Source: Sediminihabitans luteus
GTDB lineage: Bacteria > Actinomycetota > Actinomycetes > Actinomycetales > Cellulomonadaceae
Assembly: GCF_002797595.1 (NCBI RefSeq)
Contig: NZ_PGFE01000002.1
Location: 372,001 to 436,000 of the forward strand
DNA: 64,000 nucleotides
Direction of reading: 5' to 3'
Positions 48,094-56,048 of the stretch are shown here, in pieces (within the stretch, counting starts at the first letter, position 1; every line of letters begins with the position of its first letter). A program made the position numbers and the translations under genes. The notes under the pieces were generated by a model. The model was not told where the DNA came from and did no database searches. It saw only the letters and a program-made list of their open reading frames with translations.

Positions 48094-49338
48094 TCAGTTC
48101 TCCCCGTCGGTCGTGGTGGCGCTCGTGTGGCCCGAGTAGTCGGCGTGGTGGGGGTTCTCCCAGATCACGGTGCCGCCCATGCCGAGGCCGACGCACATCG
48201 TCGTCAGGCCGTACCGGACCTCGGGGTGCTGCTCGAACTGGCGCGCGAGCTGCGTCATGAGGCGCACGCCCGAGCTCGCGAGGGGGTGCCCCATCGCGAT
48301 CGCGCCGCCGTAGACGTTGACGCGCTCGTCGTCGTCCGCGATGCCGTAGTGGTCGAGGAAGCTCAGGACCTGGACGGCGAAGGCCTCGTTGATCTCGAAC
48401 AGGCCGATGTCGTCGATGCTGAGCCCGGCGGTGCGCAGCGCGCGCTCGGTCGCGGGGACCGGGCCGATGCCCATGACCTCGGGCGCGACGCCCGCGTAGG
48501 CGAACGCGACCATGCGCATGCGCACGTCGAGCCCGAGCTCCTCGGCGACGTCGCCCGCGGCCACGAGGCACGCGGTCGCGCCGTCCGTCAGGGGCGAGGC
48601 GTTGCCCGCGGTGACCTTGCCGCCGGGGCGGAACGGGGTCTTGAGGTTCGCGATGTCGGCGGCCGTGGTGCCGGGGCGGGGGAGCTCGTCGGCGGTGGCC
48701 AGCCCCCAGCCCTTCTCGGCCGAGCGGACGGCGATCGGCACGATCGCGGGGTCGATGTCGCCGTTGGCGAGGGCCTTGGCGTACTTGTCCTGGCTCGCGA
48801 CGCCGTACGCGTCGGTGCGCTCCTTGGTCAGGTGCGGGAACCGGTCGTGCAGGTTCTCGGCGGTCGAGCCCATGACGAGCGCGGAGCCGTCGACGAGCTT
48901 CTCGGCCACGAACCGGGGGTTGGGGTCCATGTCCTCACCCATGGGGTGGTGGCCCATGTGCTCGACGCCGCCGGCGATCGCGACGTCCTGCGCGCCGACC
49001 ATGATCGCCGAGGCGACGTTGGTCACGGCCGTCATGGCGCCCGCGCACATGCGGTCGATCGCGTAGCCGGGCGTGGTGCTGGGCAGGCCCGCGAGCAGCG
49101 CGACGCTGCGACCGAGGGTCAGGCCCTGGTCGCCGGTCTGCGTCGTGGCGGCGAGGGCGACCTCGTCGACGCGCTCGGCGGGCAGGGCGGGCTGGCGGCG
49201 CAGCAGCTCACGGATGGTCTTGACGGCGAGGTCGTCCGCACGGGTCTCGGCGAACAGACCGTCGGGGCGGGCCTTGCCGAACGGGCTGCGCACCCCTTCG
49301 ACGAACACGACGTCGCGCACGACGTTCCGGTGGGTCAT
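48094..49338 (-). CDS. fadA: Acetyl-CoA C-acyltransferase (3-ketoacyl-CoA thiolase)
   Basis: A 414-residue thiolase. The acyl-accepting cysteine lies in DRMCAGAM (about residue 97), with the other active-site residues in EINEAFAV, GGAIAMGHPLASSG (His) and the terminal TTMCVGLGMGG (Cys). It cleaves 3-ketoacyl-CoA with CoA, the last step of the cycle begun by the downstream FadB. ATG at 49338 is preferred to the adjacent GTG at 49341 because AGGAG is then five bases away. It is the first gene of the operon; the thiolase C-terminal tail (about 15 residues, Thr/Ser/His-rich) exceeds the family norm. Confidence 0.96.
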   Translation of the reverse strand: MTHRNVVRDVVFVEGVRSPFGKARPDGLFAETRADDLAVKTIRELLRRQPALPAERVDEVALAATTQTGDQGLTLGRSVALLAGLPSTTPGYAIDRMCAGAMTAVTNVASAIMVGAQDVAIAGGVEHMGHHPMGEDMDPNPRFVAEKLVDGSALVMGSTAENLHDRFPHLTKERTDAYGVASQDKYAKALANGDIDPAIVPIAVRSAEKGWGLATADELPRPGTTAADIANLKTPFRPGGKVTAGNASPLTDGATACLVAAGDVAEELGLDVRMRMVAFAYAGVAPEVMGIGPVPATERALRTAGLSIDDIGLFEINEAFAVQVLSFLDHYGIADDDERVNVYGGAIAMGHPLASSGVRLMTQLARQFEQHPEVRYGLTTMCVGLGMGGTVIWENPHHADYSGHTSATTTDGEN

Positions 49339-49488
49339 CACAACTCCTGGGTCGGGACGGCGGTGTCCGGAGCGGCACCGCTCTCACGCTGTACACGATA
49401 CCGCCGGTATCAGTAAAAGAGAACCGACCGCGCCCGGGGACGACGACGCCCCGGCACCGTGGGGTACCGGGGCGGACGACGGAGGGCC

Positions 49489-50708: not shown

Positions 50709-52010
50709 TCACGCCCCCGGGCTCGCCGGTGTCGCCCGCAGGGCCGTGACCAGCGGTTCCACGAGCAGATCGCGCTGCCAGGGGCGCGCGCCGCGCCCCG
50801 CGAGGAACGCGTCCACGCCCGCGGCGTCGGCCGGGTCCGGCGGCGTCCAGCACAGCCGCCGCAGGGCGTCGGGCTGCAGCAGGTTCTCGACCGGCGTCGA
50901 GCGCTCCTCGCTCACGCGCTGCACGACGTCGCGCGCGGCCTCGAGCCGTGCGGCGGCCCCGGGGTCGCGGTCGGCCCAGGCGCGCGGCGGCGGCGGGGCG
51001 TCCGTGCTCGGCCCGCGCGAGGACGGCAGCTCGCTCTCGGGCAGCCGCAGCGCGGCGTCGATCGCGGCCTGCCACTGCGGGGCACGGCGCTTGGTCATCT
51101 TGCCCGCGAACTCGCGCAGGGCCGTGAGCTCGGGCACCGTGCGGGGCAGGGCCTTCGCGGCCGCGACGATCGCGCGGTCGGGCAGCACGCGCCCGGGGGC
51201 GACGTCGCGGCGGCGTGCGTTCTCGTCGCGCGCGAGCCACAGGCTGCGCACCACGGCGATGCGGCGGCGGTCGCGCAGCACGTGCATGCCGGACGTGCGG
51301 CGCCACGGGTCCTGGCGCGGCGGGGGCGGGGGAGCGGTGCGCACCGCCTCGAACTCCTGCGCGGCCCACCCGGCCTTGCCGGCCGCCTCGAGCCGCTCCG
51401 CGAGCCGGTCGCGCAGCTCGACGAGCACCTCGACGTCGAGCGCGGCGTACCGCAGCCAGTCCTCGGGCAGCGGGCGCGTCGACCAGTCGACCGCCGAGTG
51501 CTCCTTGGCGAGCCCCAGGCCGAGGACCTCGGCGACCACGGCCGCGAGGCCGACCCGCTCCATGCCCAGCAGGCGCGCGGCGAGCTCGGTGTCGAACACG
51601 CGCGCGGGGCGCAGGCCGTGCTCGCCGAAGCCCGGGAGGTCCTGCGACGCGGCGTGCAGCACCCACTCGGCGTCGCCCACGGCCTCGCTGAGCGCCGACA
51701 TGTCCGGCACCCCCACCGGGTCGATCAGCGCCGTCCCGGCCCCCGCGCGCCGCACCTGCACGAGGTACGTCGCCTGGCCGTACCGGTAGCCCGACGCGCG
51801 CTCGGCATCGGCCGCGACCGGGCCCGTGCCCGCCGCGAACGCCTCGACCACGCGCGCGAACGCCGCCGGGGTGTCGACGACGCGCGGGATCCCGTCGGCC
51901 GGCTCGGTCAGCGGCGTGACGGCGGGCGCCTCGGGCGCGCTCTCGGGCGGGGTCCCGGTCGCGGACCCGGTCGGGTCGCTCGGGACGTCGGGCGTGACGG
52001 GCTGGCTCAT
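50709..52010 (-). CDS. Ribonuclease D-like 3'-5' exonuclease with HRDC domain
   Basis: A 433-residue DEDD-family exonuclease. After a Pro/Thr-rich N-terminus (about 1-40) the exonuclease domain shows the motifs VAADAERASGYRYGQ (Asp/Glu pair), LHAASQDLPGF (Asp), and a YAALDVEVLVELRD ending (DEDDy tyrosine and aspartate). An HRDC domain follows at about 225-305 (LWLARDENARRRDVAPGRVLPD), and a second HRDC-like region at the C-terminus. It trims RNA 3' ends, probably tRNA or stable RNA. ATG at 52010 overlaps the DUF3000 stop by four bases, so it is the second gene of that operon. Confidence 0.9.
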   Translation of the reverse strand: MSQPVTPDVPSDPTGSATGTPPESAPEAPAVTPLTEPADGIPRVVDTPAAFARVVEAFAAGTGPVAADAERASGYRYGQATYLVQVRRAGAGTALIDPVGVPDMSALSEAVGDAEWVLHAASQDLPGFGEHGLRPARVFDTELAARLLGMERVGLAAVVAEVLGLGLAKEHSAVDWSTRPLPEDWLRYAALDVEVLVELRDRLAERLEAAGKAGWAAQEFEAVRTAPPPPPRQDPWRRTSGMHVLRDRRRIAVVRSLWLARDENARRRDVAPGRVLPDRAIVAAAKALPRTVPELTALREFAGKMTKRRAPQWQAAIDAALRLPESELPSSRGPSTDAPPPPRAWADRDPGAAARLEAARDVVQRVSEERSTPVENLLQPDALRRLCWTPPDPADAAGVDAFLAGRGARPWQRDLLVEPLVTALRATPASPGA

Positions 52011-52597
52011 GACCCCATGGTCTCGCGTCGGGGCCGGAACGCGGACACGCCGTCCGGCAGCGGGGGCAGACCGGCGGCCGCGCACAGGAACGTCGCCCAC
52101 GCGCTCAGGTGCGGGCCGAGGTCGGGGGACCCGGGCGTCCACGACGTGCGGGCCTCGAGCTCGACGTCCGCGTCGCGTCCCGCGAGCGCGCCGAAGCTCT
52201 CGGAGACCACGCGCGTGATCGTGCCGCCCGTCGCGTGCGCGTCGACGCCGTCGAGGGCGTCCTCGAGCCACGTCCAGGCGACCTCGGCGAGCAGCGGGTC
52301 GGCGGCCATGTCGGGCTCCATGACGGTCCGCACGAGCGTCACGACGCGGAACGTGCCGTCCCACGCCTCCTGCCCGGCGGGGTCGTGCAGCACGATGAAC
52401 CGGCCCGAGGCGACCTCGTCGTCCGCGTCGTGGCCGCCGCGGTGCACGCTCGCCTCGAGCGCGACGGCGAACGGCGCGATGCGGCGCGGCGCGGGGATCT
52501 CGCGCAGCACGACCTCGGGCCGCAGCCGTGTGCTCCCGATCGCCCGCAGGGCGTCCCTGAAGGCTCCGGGGACGTCGGCGCGTCCGGGCGTGGTCAT
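52007..52597 (-). CDS. DUF3000 family protein
   Basis: A 196-residue soluble actinobacterial protein of unknown function. It begins with ALRAIGSTRLRPEVVLREIPAPRRIAPFAVALEA and contains SGRFIVLHDPAGQEAWDGTFRVVTLVRT and WTWLEDALDG, followed by ESFGALAGR and RTSWTP; these are DUF3000 landmarks. No catalytic motif is visible. ATG at 52597 rather than an upstream in-frame start at 52606 is favoured by a TAGTGT box ending seven bases before it. The RNase D gene is translationally coupled behind it, a pairing conserved in actinobacteria, which hints at RNA metabolism. Confidence 0.85.
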   Translation of the reverse strand: MTTPGRADVPGAFRDALRAIGSTRLRPEVVLREIPAPRRIAPFAVALEASVHRGGHDADDEVASGRFIVLHDPAGQEAWDGTFRVVTLVRTVMEPDMAADPLLAEVAWTWLEDALDGVDAHATGGTITRVVSESFGALAGRDADVELEARTSWTPGSPDLGPHLSAWATFLCAAAGLPPLPDGVSAFRPRRETMGS

Positions 52598-52753: not shown

Positions 52754-54190
52754 ATGTCTGCACGCGCACAGATCGGTGTCACCGGGCTCGCCGTCATGGG
52801 CCGCAACCTCGCCCGCAACTTCGCGCGTCACGGGTACACCGTCGCCGTGCACAACCGTTCCTACGGCAAGACGCAGTCGCTCATCGCCGAGAACGGTGAC
52901 GACGGGGACTTCGTGCCGTCGGAGTCGATGGAGGACTTCGTCGCGTCGCTCGAGCGCCCGCGCAAGGTCGTCGTCATGGTCAAGGCCGGCGCCGCGACCG
53001 ACGCCGTGATCGACGAGCTCGTGCCGCTGCTCGAGGAGGGCGACATCGTCGTCGACGCCGGCAACGCGCACTTCCCCGACACGATCCGCCGCGAGAACGC
53101 GCTGCGCGAGAAGGGCCTGCACTTCGTCGGCACGGGCGTCTCGGGCGGCGAGGAGGGCGCGCTCAACGGCCCGTCGATCATGCCGGGCGGCACCGCGGAG
53201 TCGTACGAGAGCCTCGGCCCGATCCTCGAGGACATCTCGGCCAAGGTCGACGGCGTGCCGTGCTGCACCTACGTCGGGCCGGACGGCGCCGGGCACTTCG
53301 TCAAGATGGTGCACAACGGCATCGAGTACGCCGACATGCAGCTCATCGCCGAGGCCTACGACCTGCTCAAGCAGGGGCTCGGCGCGTCGGCCGCGGAGAT
53401 CGGCCAGATCTTCGCCGAGTGGAACACGGGCGACCTCGAGTCGTTCCTCATCGAGATCACCGCCGACGTGCTGCAGCACGTCGACGCGGAAACCGGCTCG
53501 GCGTTCGTCGACGTCGTGCTCGACCAGGCCGAGCAGAAGGGCACGGGCCGCTGGACCGTGCAGAACGGCCTCGACCTGGGCGTGCCGATCACGGGCATCG
53601 CCGAGGCGACGTTCGCGCGCGCGCTCTCGGGCTCGGTCCCGCAGCGCGAGGCGGGCCGCGCGGCCCTGCCCGCGGACGCGGGCACCTGGGCCGTCGAGGA
53701 CCGCGACGCGTTCGTCGAGGACGTGCGCCTCGCACTGTTCGCGTCGAAGGTCGTCGCGTACTCGCAGGGCTTCGACCAGATCGCCGCCGCCTCGGCCGAG
53801 AACGGCTGGGACATCGACCGCGGCGCCATGGCCCGCATCTGGCGCGGCGGCTGCATCATCCGTGCCCGGTTCCTCAACCGCATCACCGAGGCGTACGAGC
53901 GCGACGCGGAGCTCCCGCTGCTGCTCGCCGACGAGTACTTCACCGGTGCGGTCGGCAACGGCCTCGCCGCGTGGCGCCGGATCGTGTCGCAGGCCGCCCT
54001 CAACGGCGTGCCCGTGCCCGCGTTCGCGTCGTCGCTGTCGTACTACGACGGCGTGCGCGCCGAGCGTCTGCCCGCCGCGCTGATCCAGGCGCAGCGCGAC
54101 TTCTTCGGGGCGCACACCTACAAGCGCGTCGACCGCGAGGGCACGTTCCACACCGAGTGGTCGCTCGACCGCTCCGAGTCGCAGGCGTGA
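52754..54190 (+). CDS. gnd: 6-phosphogluconate dehydrogenase, decarboxylating
   Basis: A 478-residue enzyme of the oxidative pentose phosphate pathway: 6-phosphogluconate plus NADP to ribulose-5-phosphate, CO2 and NADPH. N-terminal coenzyme domain: GVTGLAVMGRNLARN (residues 8-22) and VHNRSYGKT, the Arg/Lys pattern that favours NADP. Catalytic residues lie in VSGGEEGALNGPSIMPGG (about 128-145) and FVKMVHNGIEYADM (Lys, His, Asn, about 182-195). The C-terminal tail ends TYKRVDREGTFHTEW. Length matches long-chain dimeric Gnd. Its stop overlaps the GTG of the ATP-grasp ligase, an unexpected operon partner. Confidence 0.97.
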   Translation: MSARAQIGVTGLAVMGRNLARNFARHGYTVAVHNRSYGKTQSLIAENGDDGDFVPSESMEDFVASLERPRKVVVMVKAGAATDAVIDELVPLLEEGDIVVDAGNAHFPDTIRRENALREKGLHFVGTGVSGGEEGALNGPSIMPGGTAESYESLGPILEDISAKVDGVPCCTYVGPDGAGHFVKMVHNGIEYADMQLIAEAYDLLKQGLGASAAEIGQIFAEWNTGDLESFLIEITADVLQHVDAETGSAFVDVVLDQAEQKGTGRWTVQNGLDLGVPITGIAEATFARALSGSVPQREAGRAALPADAGTWAVEDRDAFVEDVRLALFASKVVAYSQGFDQIAAASAENGWDIDRGAMARIWRGGCIIRARFLNRITEAYERDAELPLLLADEYFTGAVGNGLAAWRRIVSQAALNGVPVPAFASSLSYYDGVRAERLPAALIQAQRDFFGAHTYKRVDREGTFHTEWSLDRSESQA

Positions 54191-55458
54191 GCGCGCCCGC
54201 ACCGACGGCGACGAACCTGCTGCCGGTCGCGGTCGGCGGCGACATCGGCTCGTACGCGATGCTCCGCGCGTTCCACGAGCGCTACGGGTGCGACGCGGTC
54301 GTGGTCGCGAGCGTCGTCACGCGCGCGATGGCCGACTCGTCGTTCGTGCGCGTCGTCGTCGAGCCGAAGGTCGACGAGCCCGAGGCCATGGTCGCCGCGC
54401 TCGAGCGGGTCGCCGCGCAGCACCCGGACCGCACGCTCGTGCTGCTCACGAACGCCGACTGGTACGTGCGATCGGTCATCGAGCACCGCGAGCGCCTGGA
54501 GGCGGCCGGCTACCTGCTGCCGTACTGCTCGCTCGACGTGCTCGAGAAGGTCTCGTCCAAGGAGGGCTTCGCCGAGATCTGCGACCGCCTGGGCATCCCG
54601 ACGCCGCGCACCGTCGCGGTCGACGTGCCCGCCCTGGTCGCGGCCGGGGGGCGGACGGCGGTCCCGACGTTCCCGGTCGACCTCGAGTTCCCGATCGTGG
54701 GCAAGCCGTCGTCGTCGGCGGACTACTACTACGTGTCGTTCCCGGGCAAGAAGAAGATCCACCACATCGACACGCGCGCGGAGCTCGACGAGCTCCTCGG
54801 GCACCTCGTCGACGCGGGGTACGCCGGGACGTTCCTGCTGCAGGAGTTCATCCCCGGGGACGAGACGCAGATGCGCTCGCTGACCGCCTACCGGGACCGT
54901 GCGGGGCACATCACCCTGCTCGCGACGGGTCGGGTGCTGCTCGAGGAGCACACGCCCGGCACGCTCGGGATCCCCGCGGCGATCCTGGTCGAGCCGTACG
55001 AGGACGCGATGGACGCCGCGACCCGGTTCCTCGACGAGGCCGGGTACGTGGGGTTCGCCAACTTCGACTACAAGCTCGACCCGCGCACGGGTCGGCACGT
55101 GTACTTCGAGATGAACCCGCGTGTGGGCCGGAACAACTACTACGTGACCGGCTCGGGGGCGAACGTCGCCGAGGCGATCGTCGAGGACCACGTGCACGAC
55201 CGGGCGGGGGAGGTCGCGCGCTCGCAGCGCGAGGTCCTGTACTCGGTGGTGCCGTTCGGGCTGCTGCAGAAGTACGTGCTCGACGACGCCCTGCGGGCAC
55301 GGCTCGTGGCCGCGAAGAAGCGCGGGGACGTCGTCCACCCGCTCAAGTACGGCGCGGACGCGGGCATCAAGCGTCGGCTCGTGGTCGAGGCCGTGACGCA
55401 GAACTACCGGCGCAAGTACGCGCAGTACTACCCGAAGCCCACGAGCTCGGGGTACTGA
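54187..55458 (+). CDS. ATP-grasp carboxylate-amine ligase, resembling D-aspartate ligase (Asl)
   Basis: A 423-residue ATP-grasp enzyme. The N-terminus LLPVAVGGDIGSYAMLRAFHERYG, the FPIVGKPSSSADYYYVSFPGKKK stretch (about 172-195), LLQEFIPGDETQMRS (about 218-232), and GFANFDYKLDPRTG with YFEMNPRVGRNNY (about 290-320, metal ligands) follow the pattern I recall from Enterococcus faecium Asl(fm), which attaches D-aspartate to the peptidoglycan stem lysine. Cellulomonas-type walls are reported as ornithine with D-Glu or D-Asp bridges (A4 type), so a ligase adding a D-amino diacid to the stem peptide is a good inference, not proven. GTG start overlaps the gnd stop (GTGA). A 23-bp hairpin ends the operon. 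Confidence 0.85.
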   Translation: MSAPAPTATNLLPVAVGGDIGSYAMLRAFHERYGCDAVVVASVVTRAMADSSFVRVVVEPKVDEPEAMVAALERVAAQHPDRTLVLLTNADWYVRSVIEHRERLEAAGYLLPYCSLDVLEKVSSKEGFAEICDRLGIPTPRTVAVDVPALVAAGGRTAVPTFPVDLEFPIVGKPSSSADYYYVSFPGKKKIHHIDTRAELDELLGHLVDAGYAGTFLLQEFIPGDETQMRSLTAYRDRAGHITLLATGRVLLEEHTPGTLGIPAAILVEPYEDAMDAATRFLDEAGYVGFANFDYKLDPRTGRHVYFEMNPRVGRNNYYVTGSGANVAEAIVEDHVHDRAGEVARSQREVLYSVVPFGLLQKYVLDDALRARLVAAKKRGDVVHPLKYGADAGIKRRLVVEAVTQNYRRKYAQYYPKPTSSGY

Positions 55459-55475
55459 CCCTCAGGGTCCGACGA

Positions 55476-55523
55476 CGAGAGCCCCGGGGCGCCCACCGTG
55501 CGGTGGGTGCCCCGGGGCTCTCG
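55476..55523. terminator. Bidirectional 23-bp hairpin after the ATP-grasp ligase gene
   Basis: A 23-bp stem (55476-55498 with 55501-55523, one G-T pair) and a very small loop lie between convergent stops. It is the longest hairpin in the window. Confidence 0.8.
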
Positions 55524-55549
55524 TGGTTCCCGGGCGGGTTCGTCCGGGC

Positions 55550-56035
55550 TCAGCCGAGCTCGGACGTGCCGAGGTAGATGTGCAGCACCGGCACCTGCAG
55601 GCTCTCGCGCGCCTTCGACGCCCAGTCGGTGTGGAACGTGTCCTCGACCGCGTGCGGGTACGTCAGCACCACGATCTCGCGCGCCTCGCCGGCCTCGACG
55701 ATCGCGCGCACGGCCGGCAGCGGGTCGTCCTCGGTGACCTCGCCGACGACGTCGACGCCCGCGTCCGCGAGCGCCTGCACCGTCGTCGCGAGCTGCTCGC
55801 CCGCGGTCTGCCGGGCGACCACGGGGTCGGGCTCCTTGCCGATCATCGCGTCCCACGCCTCGCGCAGGTAGCCCAGGCTCAGGTAGTCGATGAACGACTC
55901 CACGAGGTTGTGCTCGGTGTCGGCGGGCACCAGCACCCGGTAGCGCACGTCGTCGTCCGTGTGCAACGACGTCACGTGCTCGACGTCCGAGGCGGACAGG
56001 GCATCTTCGGCAAGAACCAGGATCGTGTCGGTCAC
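55550..56035 (-). CDS. UspA-like small protein of unknown function
   Basis: A 161-residue protein with a flavodoxin/Usp-like alternating pattern: TDTILVLAEDALSASDVEHV at the start, YRVLVPADTEHN, a helix-rich middle (LVESFIDYLSLGYLREAWDAMIG), then VDVVGEVTEDDPLPAVRAIVEAGEAREIVVLTYPHAVEDTFHTDWASKARESLQVPVLHIY. The last section resembles the ATP-loop end of universal stress proteins, but the canonical G-x2-G-x9-G(S/T) motif is missing, so nucleotide binding is doubtful. Orthologues in actinobacteria are sometimes mislabelled indole-3-glycerol phosphate synthase; nothing here supports that. GTG at 56035 is set by TACGGT ending seven bases upstream. Confidence 0.75.
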   Translation of the reverse strand: MTDTILVLAEDALSASDVEHVTSLHTDDDVRYRVLVPADTEHNLVESFIDYLSLGYLREAWDAMIGKEPDPVVARQTAGEQLATTVQALADAGVDVVGEVTEDDPLPAVRAIVEAGEAREIVVLTYPHAVEDTFHTDWASKARESLQVPVLHIYLGTSELG

Positions 56036-56042
56036 GGGACCC

Positions 56043-56048
56043 ACCGTA
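56043..56048 (-). promoter_or_regulatory. -10 hexamer TACGGT, leaderless promoter of the Usp-like gene
   Basis: TACGGT on the minus strand ends seven bases before the GTG at 56035, and overlaps the alternative GTG at 56044. Confidence 0.55.

Follow-up and report, generated by a model that had tools for sequence, protein, structure and literature searches.

Which enzyme adds the D-residue to the A4-type peptidoglycan bridges of actinobacteria? These bridges, which contain D-glutamate (D-Glu) or D-aspartate (D-Asp), have classically served as a marker in the taxonomy of actinobacteria. In the open-licence literature searched no assignment of their ligases was found, and in particular none of a D-Glu bridge ligase of actinobacteria. 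The question is raised by a gene, here called asl, in a stretch of 64,000 nucleotides from Sediminihabitans luteus (contig NZ_PGFE01000002.1, positions 372,001 to 436,000; hereafter the window), where it starts on the last bases of gnd, the gene of 6-phosphogluconate dehydrogenase. Our comparison of sequences, loci and a structure model leads us to consider it quite probable that asl encodes a D-Glu-specific ATP-grasp ligase of the Asl family, and that its acceptor is an L-residue added by a Fem transferase, the gene of which lies in the same locus.

The asl gene and its family

The frame at 54187-55458 of the forward strand is a real gene. It is free of inner stops and is not a chance frame, since its relatives are widespread: they occur in 214 of the 221 genomes of the GTDB family (E <= 1e-20), in 194 of its 196 good genomes, and in 87 of 198 genomes sampled from the order (E <= 1e-10). 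The sequence is conserved from about residue 11 on, and the GTG at 54187 is the start that agrees with this. Within its own genome asl is the sole full-length copy at E <= 1; the one other match (29% over 119 amino acids) lies inside an open frame of 1112 amino acids, presumably carbamoyl-phosphate synthase. In one genome of the family (G172:C2:400318-401452) the ligase is split over two reading frames, as two pieces that overlap.

The initial annotation regarded the product as an Asl-like ligase, and this identity is borne out by full-length homology, by the family tree and by the structure model. In plasmid records, tblastn detected lactobacillar homologues that cover 96-97% of the window ligase. 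The protein of Latilactobacillus curvatus aligns with all of it (28% identity, 52% positives, E 6e-65), and the gene of this protein is located directly 3' of an annotated amino acid racemase gene and aspS; other lactobacillar matches are those of L. crispatus (30%) and L. fermentum (26%). Extracts of the literature describe the characterised members of the family as D-Asp ligases, place aslA, the product of which adds D-Asp, in one operon with racD in L. lactis, and attribute D-Asp bridges to most lactobacilli (PMC4155827). On the L. crispatus plasmid, asnB stands directly 5' of the Asl-like gene (L035 2027-5281), a pair that fits the amidation of a D-Asp bridge by asparagine synthase as outlined in the same source (PMC4155827).

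The four motif strings quoted earlier as those of Asl are all present in the window protein, but they are the window's own letters; the corresponding blocks in L. curvatus read GSDFNVYGM, FEGRKK, DFIPGDDSRMH and GYANLDMKYDER. That L. curvatus, L. crispatus and L. fermentum themselves have D-Asp bridges is in part our assumption. Residues K173, E308, N310 and R312 are invariant in 37 sequences, and roles in metal or ATP binding are predicted for them by analogy. The structure prediction suggested in the initial annotation, made with AlphaFold2 from these 37 sequences, gave a confident model (pLDDT 93.4) with an ATP-grasp fold, while Pfam recognises only a generic ATP-grasp domain. The best structural matches in the PDB are carbamoyl-phosphate-synthase-like proteins, PurK and PylC, the latter with Z 24.1 and 3.4 A over 296 residues (4ffl). 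We take PylC to couple a D-amino acid, through its carboxylate, to lysine at the side-chain amine, and the structure titles fit this. A phmmer search of the PDB for a solved Asl returned only carbamoyl-phosphate synthase or weak matches. A grouping with unrelated ATP-grasp enzymes was not seen, the tree consisting of family members only and the wider kinship being judged from pairwise homology. Taken together, membership of the window protein in the Asl family is supported, and it very probably acts in the synthesis of the peptidoglycan bridge.

A scan of viral contigs revealed 6 stretches that fit a pattern, none of which encodes an asl relative. The unverified phage record MT835538.1 has two ligase genes in tandem that closely resemble Brachybacterium ones, and it is probably a bacterial contig. 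Two short records named 'Listeria phage' (OR847535.1 and OR848680.1) contain pieces of Asl-like genes with 32% identity.

Two ligase types and their racemases

The substrate was approached by a comparison of 100 ligases from 80 named loci, four plasmid records and the window, in which neighbouring racemase, gnd and fem genes were marked; a ligase was called racemase-linked if its own strand carries a racemase gene no more than 700 bp away. The maximum-likelihood tree divides the set into 68 and 32 members, a split that was defined from a first tree, has a support of 100/99 in a more careful one and is present in 200 of 200 bootstrap trees tested. All 29 racemase-linked ligases are found on one side, and the window ligase is on the other, the 68-member side. 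On the far side 29 of the 32 have an own-strand racemase within 206 bp (the remaining three are those of L. crispatus and L. fermentum and a second Demequina copy), as against none of the 68.

Three residues follow the same division: N89, S231 and N316 (N-S-N) are present together in 68/68 ligases of the window's side and in 0/31 of the other, where these positions are occupied by C/S, I/V/T and S/C in 31/31; the second Demequina copy, which reads S-I-S, was left out of this count. The three columns were picked after the fact by an alignment scan of a set that includes the window, and a check set was therefore assembled from 59 further stretches of the order, which yielded 61 usable ligases, or 58 after removal of 3 that are identical to known ones. 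Among these 58, the 14 N-S-N ligases include no racemase-linked one and the 16 racemase-linked ligases no N-S-N one; 12 lack N89 and S231 as well as a linked racemase, and 16 are mixed. N-S-N and racemase linkage thus exclude each other in every case seen, yet together they do not cover the family. On the tree of all 158 sequences the N-S-N and racemase-linked rows part by one change (99) if the 31 rows of neither kind are left uncounted; over all rows, N-S-N takes 3 changes and racemase linkage 8.

Other letters at these positions occur in ligases without a linked racemase: N-V-S in eight (L141, L143, L148-L151, L153 and L155, all of family f13), S-A-S in six (L135, L140, L160-L162 and L173) and N-T-P in two (L136 and L139). 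They are perhaps further substrate classes, possibly for L-Glu or another residue. In Promicromonospora and Antribacter the N-S-N ligase is accompanied by another that is racemase-linked (L041 10582-11757; L080, L083, L084 and L093), and these organisms may be able to make D-Glu as well as D-Asp bridges. The ligases of two records, Xylanimonas cellulosilytica 352_XCEL (L101) and Cellulosimicrobium cellulans DE0111 (L060), group with those of Actinomycetaceae and Cellulomonas hominis, and the names of these records may be wrong.

The racemases themselves bear on the donor amino acid. All 7 of 7 linked racemases tested match TIGR00035, the amino acid (aspartate-type) racemase, above its cut-off. 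There is no racemase gene at the window ligase locus, and the only PF01177 protein of the window genome is a glutamate racemase by TIGR00067 (215.6 bits, cut-off 146.65). Whole-genome counts were obtained for 50 genomes, those of 49 of the 80 named loci and the window genome. Twenty of them carry a racemase-type ligase, as judged from residues or linkage, and all 20 encode at least two PF01177 racemases; of the 30 genomes with N-S-N ligases only, 20 encode one or none. The initial annotation had named D-Glu or D-Asp as the donor. Because the window ligase belongs to the tree side without same-strand racemase neighbours, we predict D-Glu, and D-Asp is disfavoured.

The Fem transferase and reported wall chemistry

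A gene that the initial annotation did not mention, fem, lies 3.5 kb from asl on the opposite strand; its product scores 79.6 bits with PF02388, above the gathering score of 24. The PF02388 profile has matches in 20 of the 50 genomes. A model of the window Fem type has them in 21, of which 20 are at E <= 1e-56; the 21st, in Brachybacterium (6e-20), is on a contig other than that of its ligases. In 20/20 genomes the Fem type is situated within 6.6 kb of a ligase. These are genomes of Paraoerskovia (2), Promicromonospora (5) and Demequina (2), five Actinomyces-like ones, and one each of Myceligenerans, Jonesia, Sanguibacter, Antribacter, Cellulosimicrobium marinum and Pseudoclavibacter; no gene of this type was detected in any of the genomes of Cellulomonas, Actinotalea, Pengzhenrongella and Isoptericola that were included. 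In general, ATP-grasp ligases are described as making D-Asp and D-Glu cross-links, and Fem enzymes those with L-residues (PMC2922099, extract). The presence of a FemAB gene nearby points to an L-residue before D-Glu. Myceligenerans presumably uses L-Thr and Promicromonospora L-Ala, and on the strength of these residues of relatives our guess for the window bridge is Ser or Ala.

Reported wall types, as given in extracts of the descriptions, allow this prediction to be compared with chemistry. Sanguibacter keddieii with Lys-Ser-D-Glu (PMC3035225) and Jonesia denitrificans with Lys-L-Ser-D-Glu (PMC3035236) both have an N-S-N ligase and fem. Cellulomonas flavigena, with ornithine (Orn) and D-Asp in the wall (PMC3035266), has an S-I-S ligase with a racemase and no fem within the 12.5 kb searched; Actinotalea bogoriensis, with Orn-D-Asp (PMC8878594), has a racemase-linked ligase and no fem was found in it. 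Pengzhenrongella, for which Orn-D-Glu is reported at the genus level (PMC11165906), has an N-S-N ligase and one PF01177 protein, with no fem found, and the ligase of A. subterranea is on the window's tree side, which fits its reported D-Glu. With Xylanimonas cellulosilytica (Lys-D-Asp; PMC3035249) and Actinotalea carbonis (Orn-D-Glu; PMC8878594) included, the D-residue agrees in 6 of 8 reported walls, one having both ligase types and one being contrary, and the fem pattern in 8/8, C. flavigena and X. cellulosilytica having been searched at the locus only. The premise of a Cellulomonas-type wall with ornithine does not follow, as the nearest named genome is that of Paraoerskovia marina DSM 21750 (82%), with Promicromonospora, Myceligenerans and Sanguibacter next, and Cellulomonas was rejected as the source. 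A rule by which the number of ligases equals the number of D-residues fails for A. subterranea and, as reported, for X. cellulosilytica.

Several observations weigh against D-Glu as the donor or against its link with the ligase type. A. carbonis has the racemase-linked type only (we take its genome record to be of the same strain as the described one), the genome of X. cellulosilytica (G442) has both types in tandem together with a racemase, so that its N-S-N copy is left over, and A. subterranea has a single ligase for the two D-residues reported, so that D-Ser is left over. Older descriptions can be in error about the wall type, which limits such comparison, and the literature searched, including extracts of PMC6113628 and PMC3035266, gave no wall type for Paraoerskovia. 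Ten of the 30 N-S-N-only genomes have a second PF01177 racemase elsewhere, and the search for a D-Asp source covered PF01177 only, with racemases of the pyridoxal phosphate type and transaminases outside it. Five of the 7 linked racemases are cysteate racemases by NCBIfam above cut-off, D-Asp being their presumed product. N-S-N apparently arose once, so that few independent events stand behind its association with the absence of a racemase; N89, S231 and N316 are alignment columns rather than positions placed in the active site of the model. Finally, among the N-S-N ligases six copies of Brachybacterium type (2 in the set of 68 and 4, including one duplicate, from the further stretches) have an opposite-strand racemase within 219 bp, each beside a second, racemase-linked ligase, and in Isoptericola the gene run is gnd, N-S-N ligase, racemase-type ligase and racemase.

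Proposed reaction and its alternatives

We propose that ATP would phosphorylate a carboxylate of D-Glu, and that the acyl phosphate so formed would be attacked by the amino group of the bridge as it grows on the wall precursor in the cytoplasm. Fem would attach its L-residue first, most likely Ser, or Ala, and the ligase would then add D-Glu to this residue, probably not directly to the stem diamino acid. The product would be an A4-type bridge L-X-D-Glu, in which X is the residue attached by Fem.

One alternative is that the window enzyme uses D-Asp, as the characterised Asl proteins do, and that the split of the tree reflects the acceptor or ancestry. The characterised members are indeed D-Asp ligases (PMC4155827), A. 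carbonis does not match the D-Glu prediction and the split is one evolutionary event. However, an own-strand racemase is beside none of the 68 plus 14 window-side ligases, the only PF01177 racemase of the window genome is a glutamate racemase, and the D-Glu-reported S. keddieii, J. denitrificans, A. subterranea and Pengzhenrongella are on the window's side while the D-Asp-reported C. flavigena is on the other. Thus we consider a D-Asp ligase unlikely. A second alternative, which is compatible with the first, is that the enzyme joins D-Glu straight to the stem diamino acid and that the nearby Fem serves something else. Here the low probability that we assign follows from the close linkage of the Fem type to a ligase in every genome with strong matches, from the coincidence of both reported Ser-D-Glu walls with Fem, and from two genomes of the same genus in which Fem and ligase are both strongly different although gnd and thiolase are alike; this outweighs the opposite strand and the 3.5 kb distance of fem, as well as same-side Cellulomonas-type relatives which do without this Fem type, Pengzhenrongella with its reported Orn-D-Glu among them. 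It is very improbable that the protein is an ATP-grasp ligase outside wall synthesis (e.g. one that makes a peptide antibiotic or tags a protein) with only an ancestral resemblance to Asl: ATP-grasp ligases serve many pathways and Pfam sees no more than the generic domain, but occurrence in nearly all good genomes of the family suits a wall gene, and the full-length homology to a racemase-linked Asl-type gene and the linkage with Fem point the same way. A D-Glu ligase acting on a Fem-added residue therefore remains our preferred reading.

Organization of the locus and possible gene exchange

The features of the locus are collected in Table 1. The overlap of asl with gnd stated in the initial annotation is confirmed; in it GTG is the start codon of asl and TGA the stop codon of gnd. 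The region 55459-55540 folds with -70.9 kcal/mol (z -7.66; 0 of 200 shuffles equally low). Because such a very stable hairpin follows asl, gnd and asl seem to form a transcription unit of two genes that is terminated separately: they are probably transcribed together, and the hairpin is likely the end of the transcript.

Table 1. Features of the asl locus, in window coordinates.
Feature	Position	Strand	Remarks
Thiolase gene, frame gene beyond fem	48094..49341	-	conserved position
fem, FemAB-family aminoacyltransferase, predicted to add the bridge L-residue	49584..50672	-	362 amino acids; PF02388 2.8e-22
Ribonuclease-D-like exonuclease gene, frame gene between fem and gnd	50709..52364	-	conserved position
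gnd, 6-phosphogluconate dehydrogenase, 5' neighbour of asl	52754..54190	+	Pfam 6PGD 7e-124; conserved neighbour
GTGA overlap, asl start and gnd stop	54187..54190	+	4 bases common to both genes
asl, Asl-type ATP-grasp ligase, predicted D-Glu bridge ligase	54187..55458	+	423 amino acids; homology, tree, residues, model
Very strong hairpin 3' of asl	55478..55523	+	folding of 55459-55540
Gene of conserved small protein, downstream bound of the ligase slot in several relatives	55550..56044	-	no Pfam match

The neighbourhood of gnd, previously regarded as an unexpected operon, is not a one-off: gnd is within 300 bp of a ligase in 35 of the 80 named loci. Both ligase types sit behind gnd, which led us to reject a functional reason for the linkage, and it looks like an inherited position rather than pathway logic. 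In a comparison of 13 loci from 12 genomes (two of the loci are from P. marina), 11 share the order thiolase, (fem), ribonuclease D, gnd, ligase; the exceptions are Myceligenerans, which is rearranged, and genome G451, in which fem adjoins the ligase instead. In two Cellulomonas loci and that of Isoptericola thiolase adjoins ribonuclease D, with no fem found between them.

The four genomes of the window's genus differ within this common order: two have the N-S-N ligase, and the other two (loci L201 and L202) have, behind the same gnd, a C-I-S ligase with an added racemase, and another fem in the same locus. Compared with the window, gnd and thiolase of L201/L202 are 91-92% and 86-91% identical, whereas fem is 48% and the ligase 43% identical; the corresponding values for P. 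marina are 92%, 88%, 76% and 82%. In the fem tree the L201/L202 genes group with those of Myceligenerans, C. marinum and Pseudoclavibacter (100/100), and the window fem is placed across from them, together with the genes of Sanguibacter, Jonesia and Promicromonospora. This divergence of fem and ligase, while gnd and thiolase stay alike, and the different places in the fem tree suggest that fem and ligase have been exchanged as a set.

We regard it as slightly favoured that the bridge chemotype is determined by a cassette that can be swapped within a constant chromosomal frame of thiolase, fem slot, ribonuclease D, gnd and ligase slot, in which the ligase type with or without its racemase would decide between D-Glu and D-Asp and the fem slot would determine the L-residue. 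If this is true, a long-used taxonomic marker can switch through the replacement of a few genes. The analysis also names candidate bridge ligase genes and offers a three-residue prediction of D-Glu versus D-Asp, together with a Fem-based one for the presence of an L-residue.

Comparison with known systems

The carbamoyl-phosphate-synthase-like proteins of PRK12767 are the best NCBIfam match of the window ligase (8e-9), yet at 34.8 bits it is far below the cut-off of 316 and by this model is no member of the group. PylC is among the best structural matches of the model (Z 23-24) but is only 13-14% identical to the window ligase, and its substrates are, as we assume, the free amino acids of pyrrolysine biosynthesis, unlike those of the window ligase. 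The product of the window fem belongs to the FemAB/FemX aminoacyltransferases by PF02388, with a weak match to NCBIfam FemX (43 bits, cut-off 500); it is the predicted partner of the window ligase and not a ligase itself.

The closest known systems are Aslfm of Enterococcus faecium and AslA of L. lactis, to which the window ligase is likened by their description and through the racemase-linked L. curvatus protein. It shares with them the full-length homology so traced, the ATP-grasp fold, the expected acyl-phosphate chemistry and, by prediction, the role in the wall bridge. It differs in its place across the 100/99 branch, with N89/S231/N316, in its neighbours, which are gnd and Fem in place of an adjoining racemase, and in its expected substrates, D-Glu and an L-residue as acceptor. 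Since its locus is devoid of an aspartate racemase and the sole PF01177 protein of its genome is a glutamate racemase, we file the window ligase as a variant of Asl and not as another D-Asp ligase.

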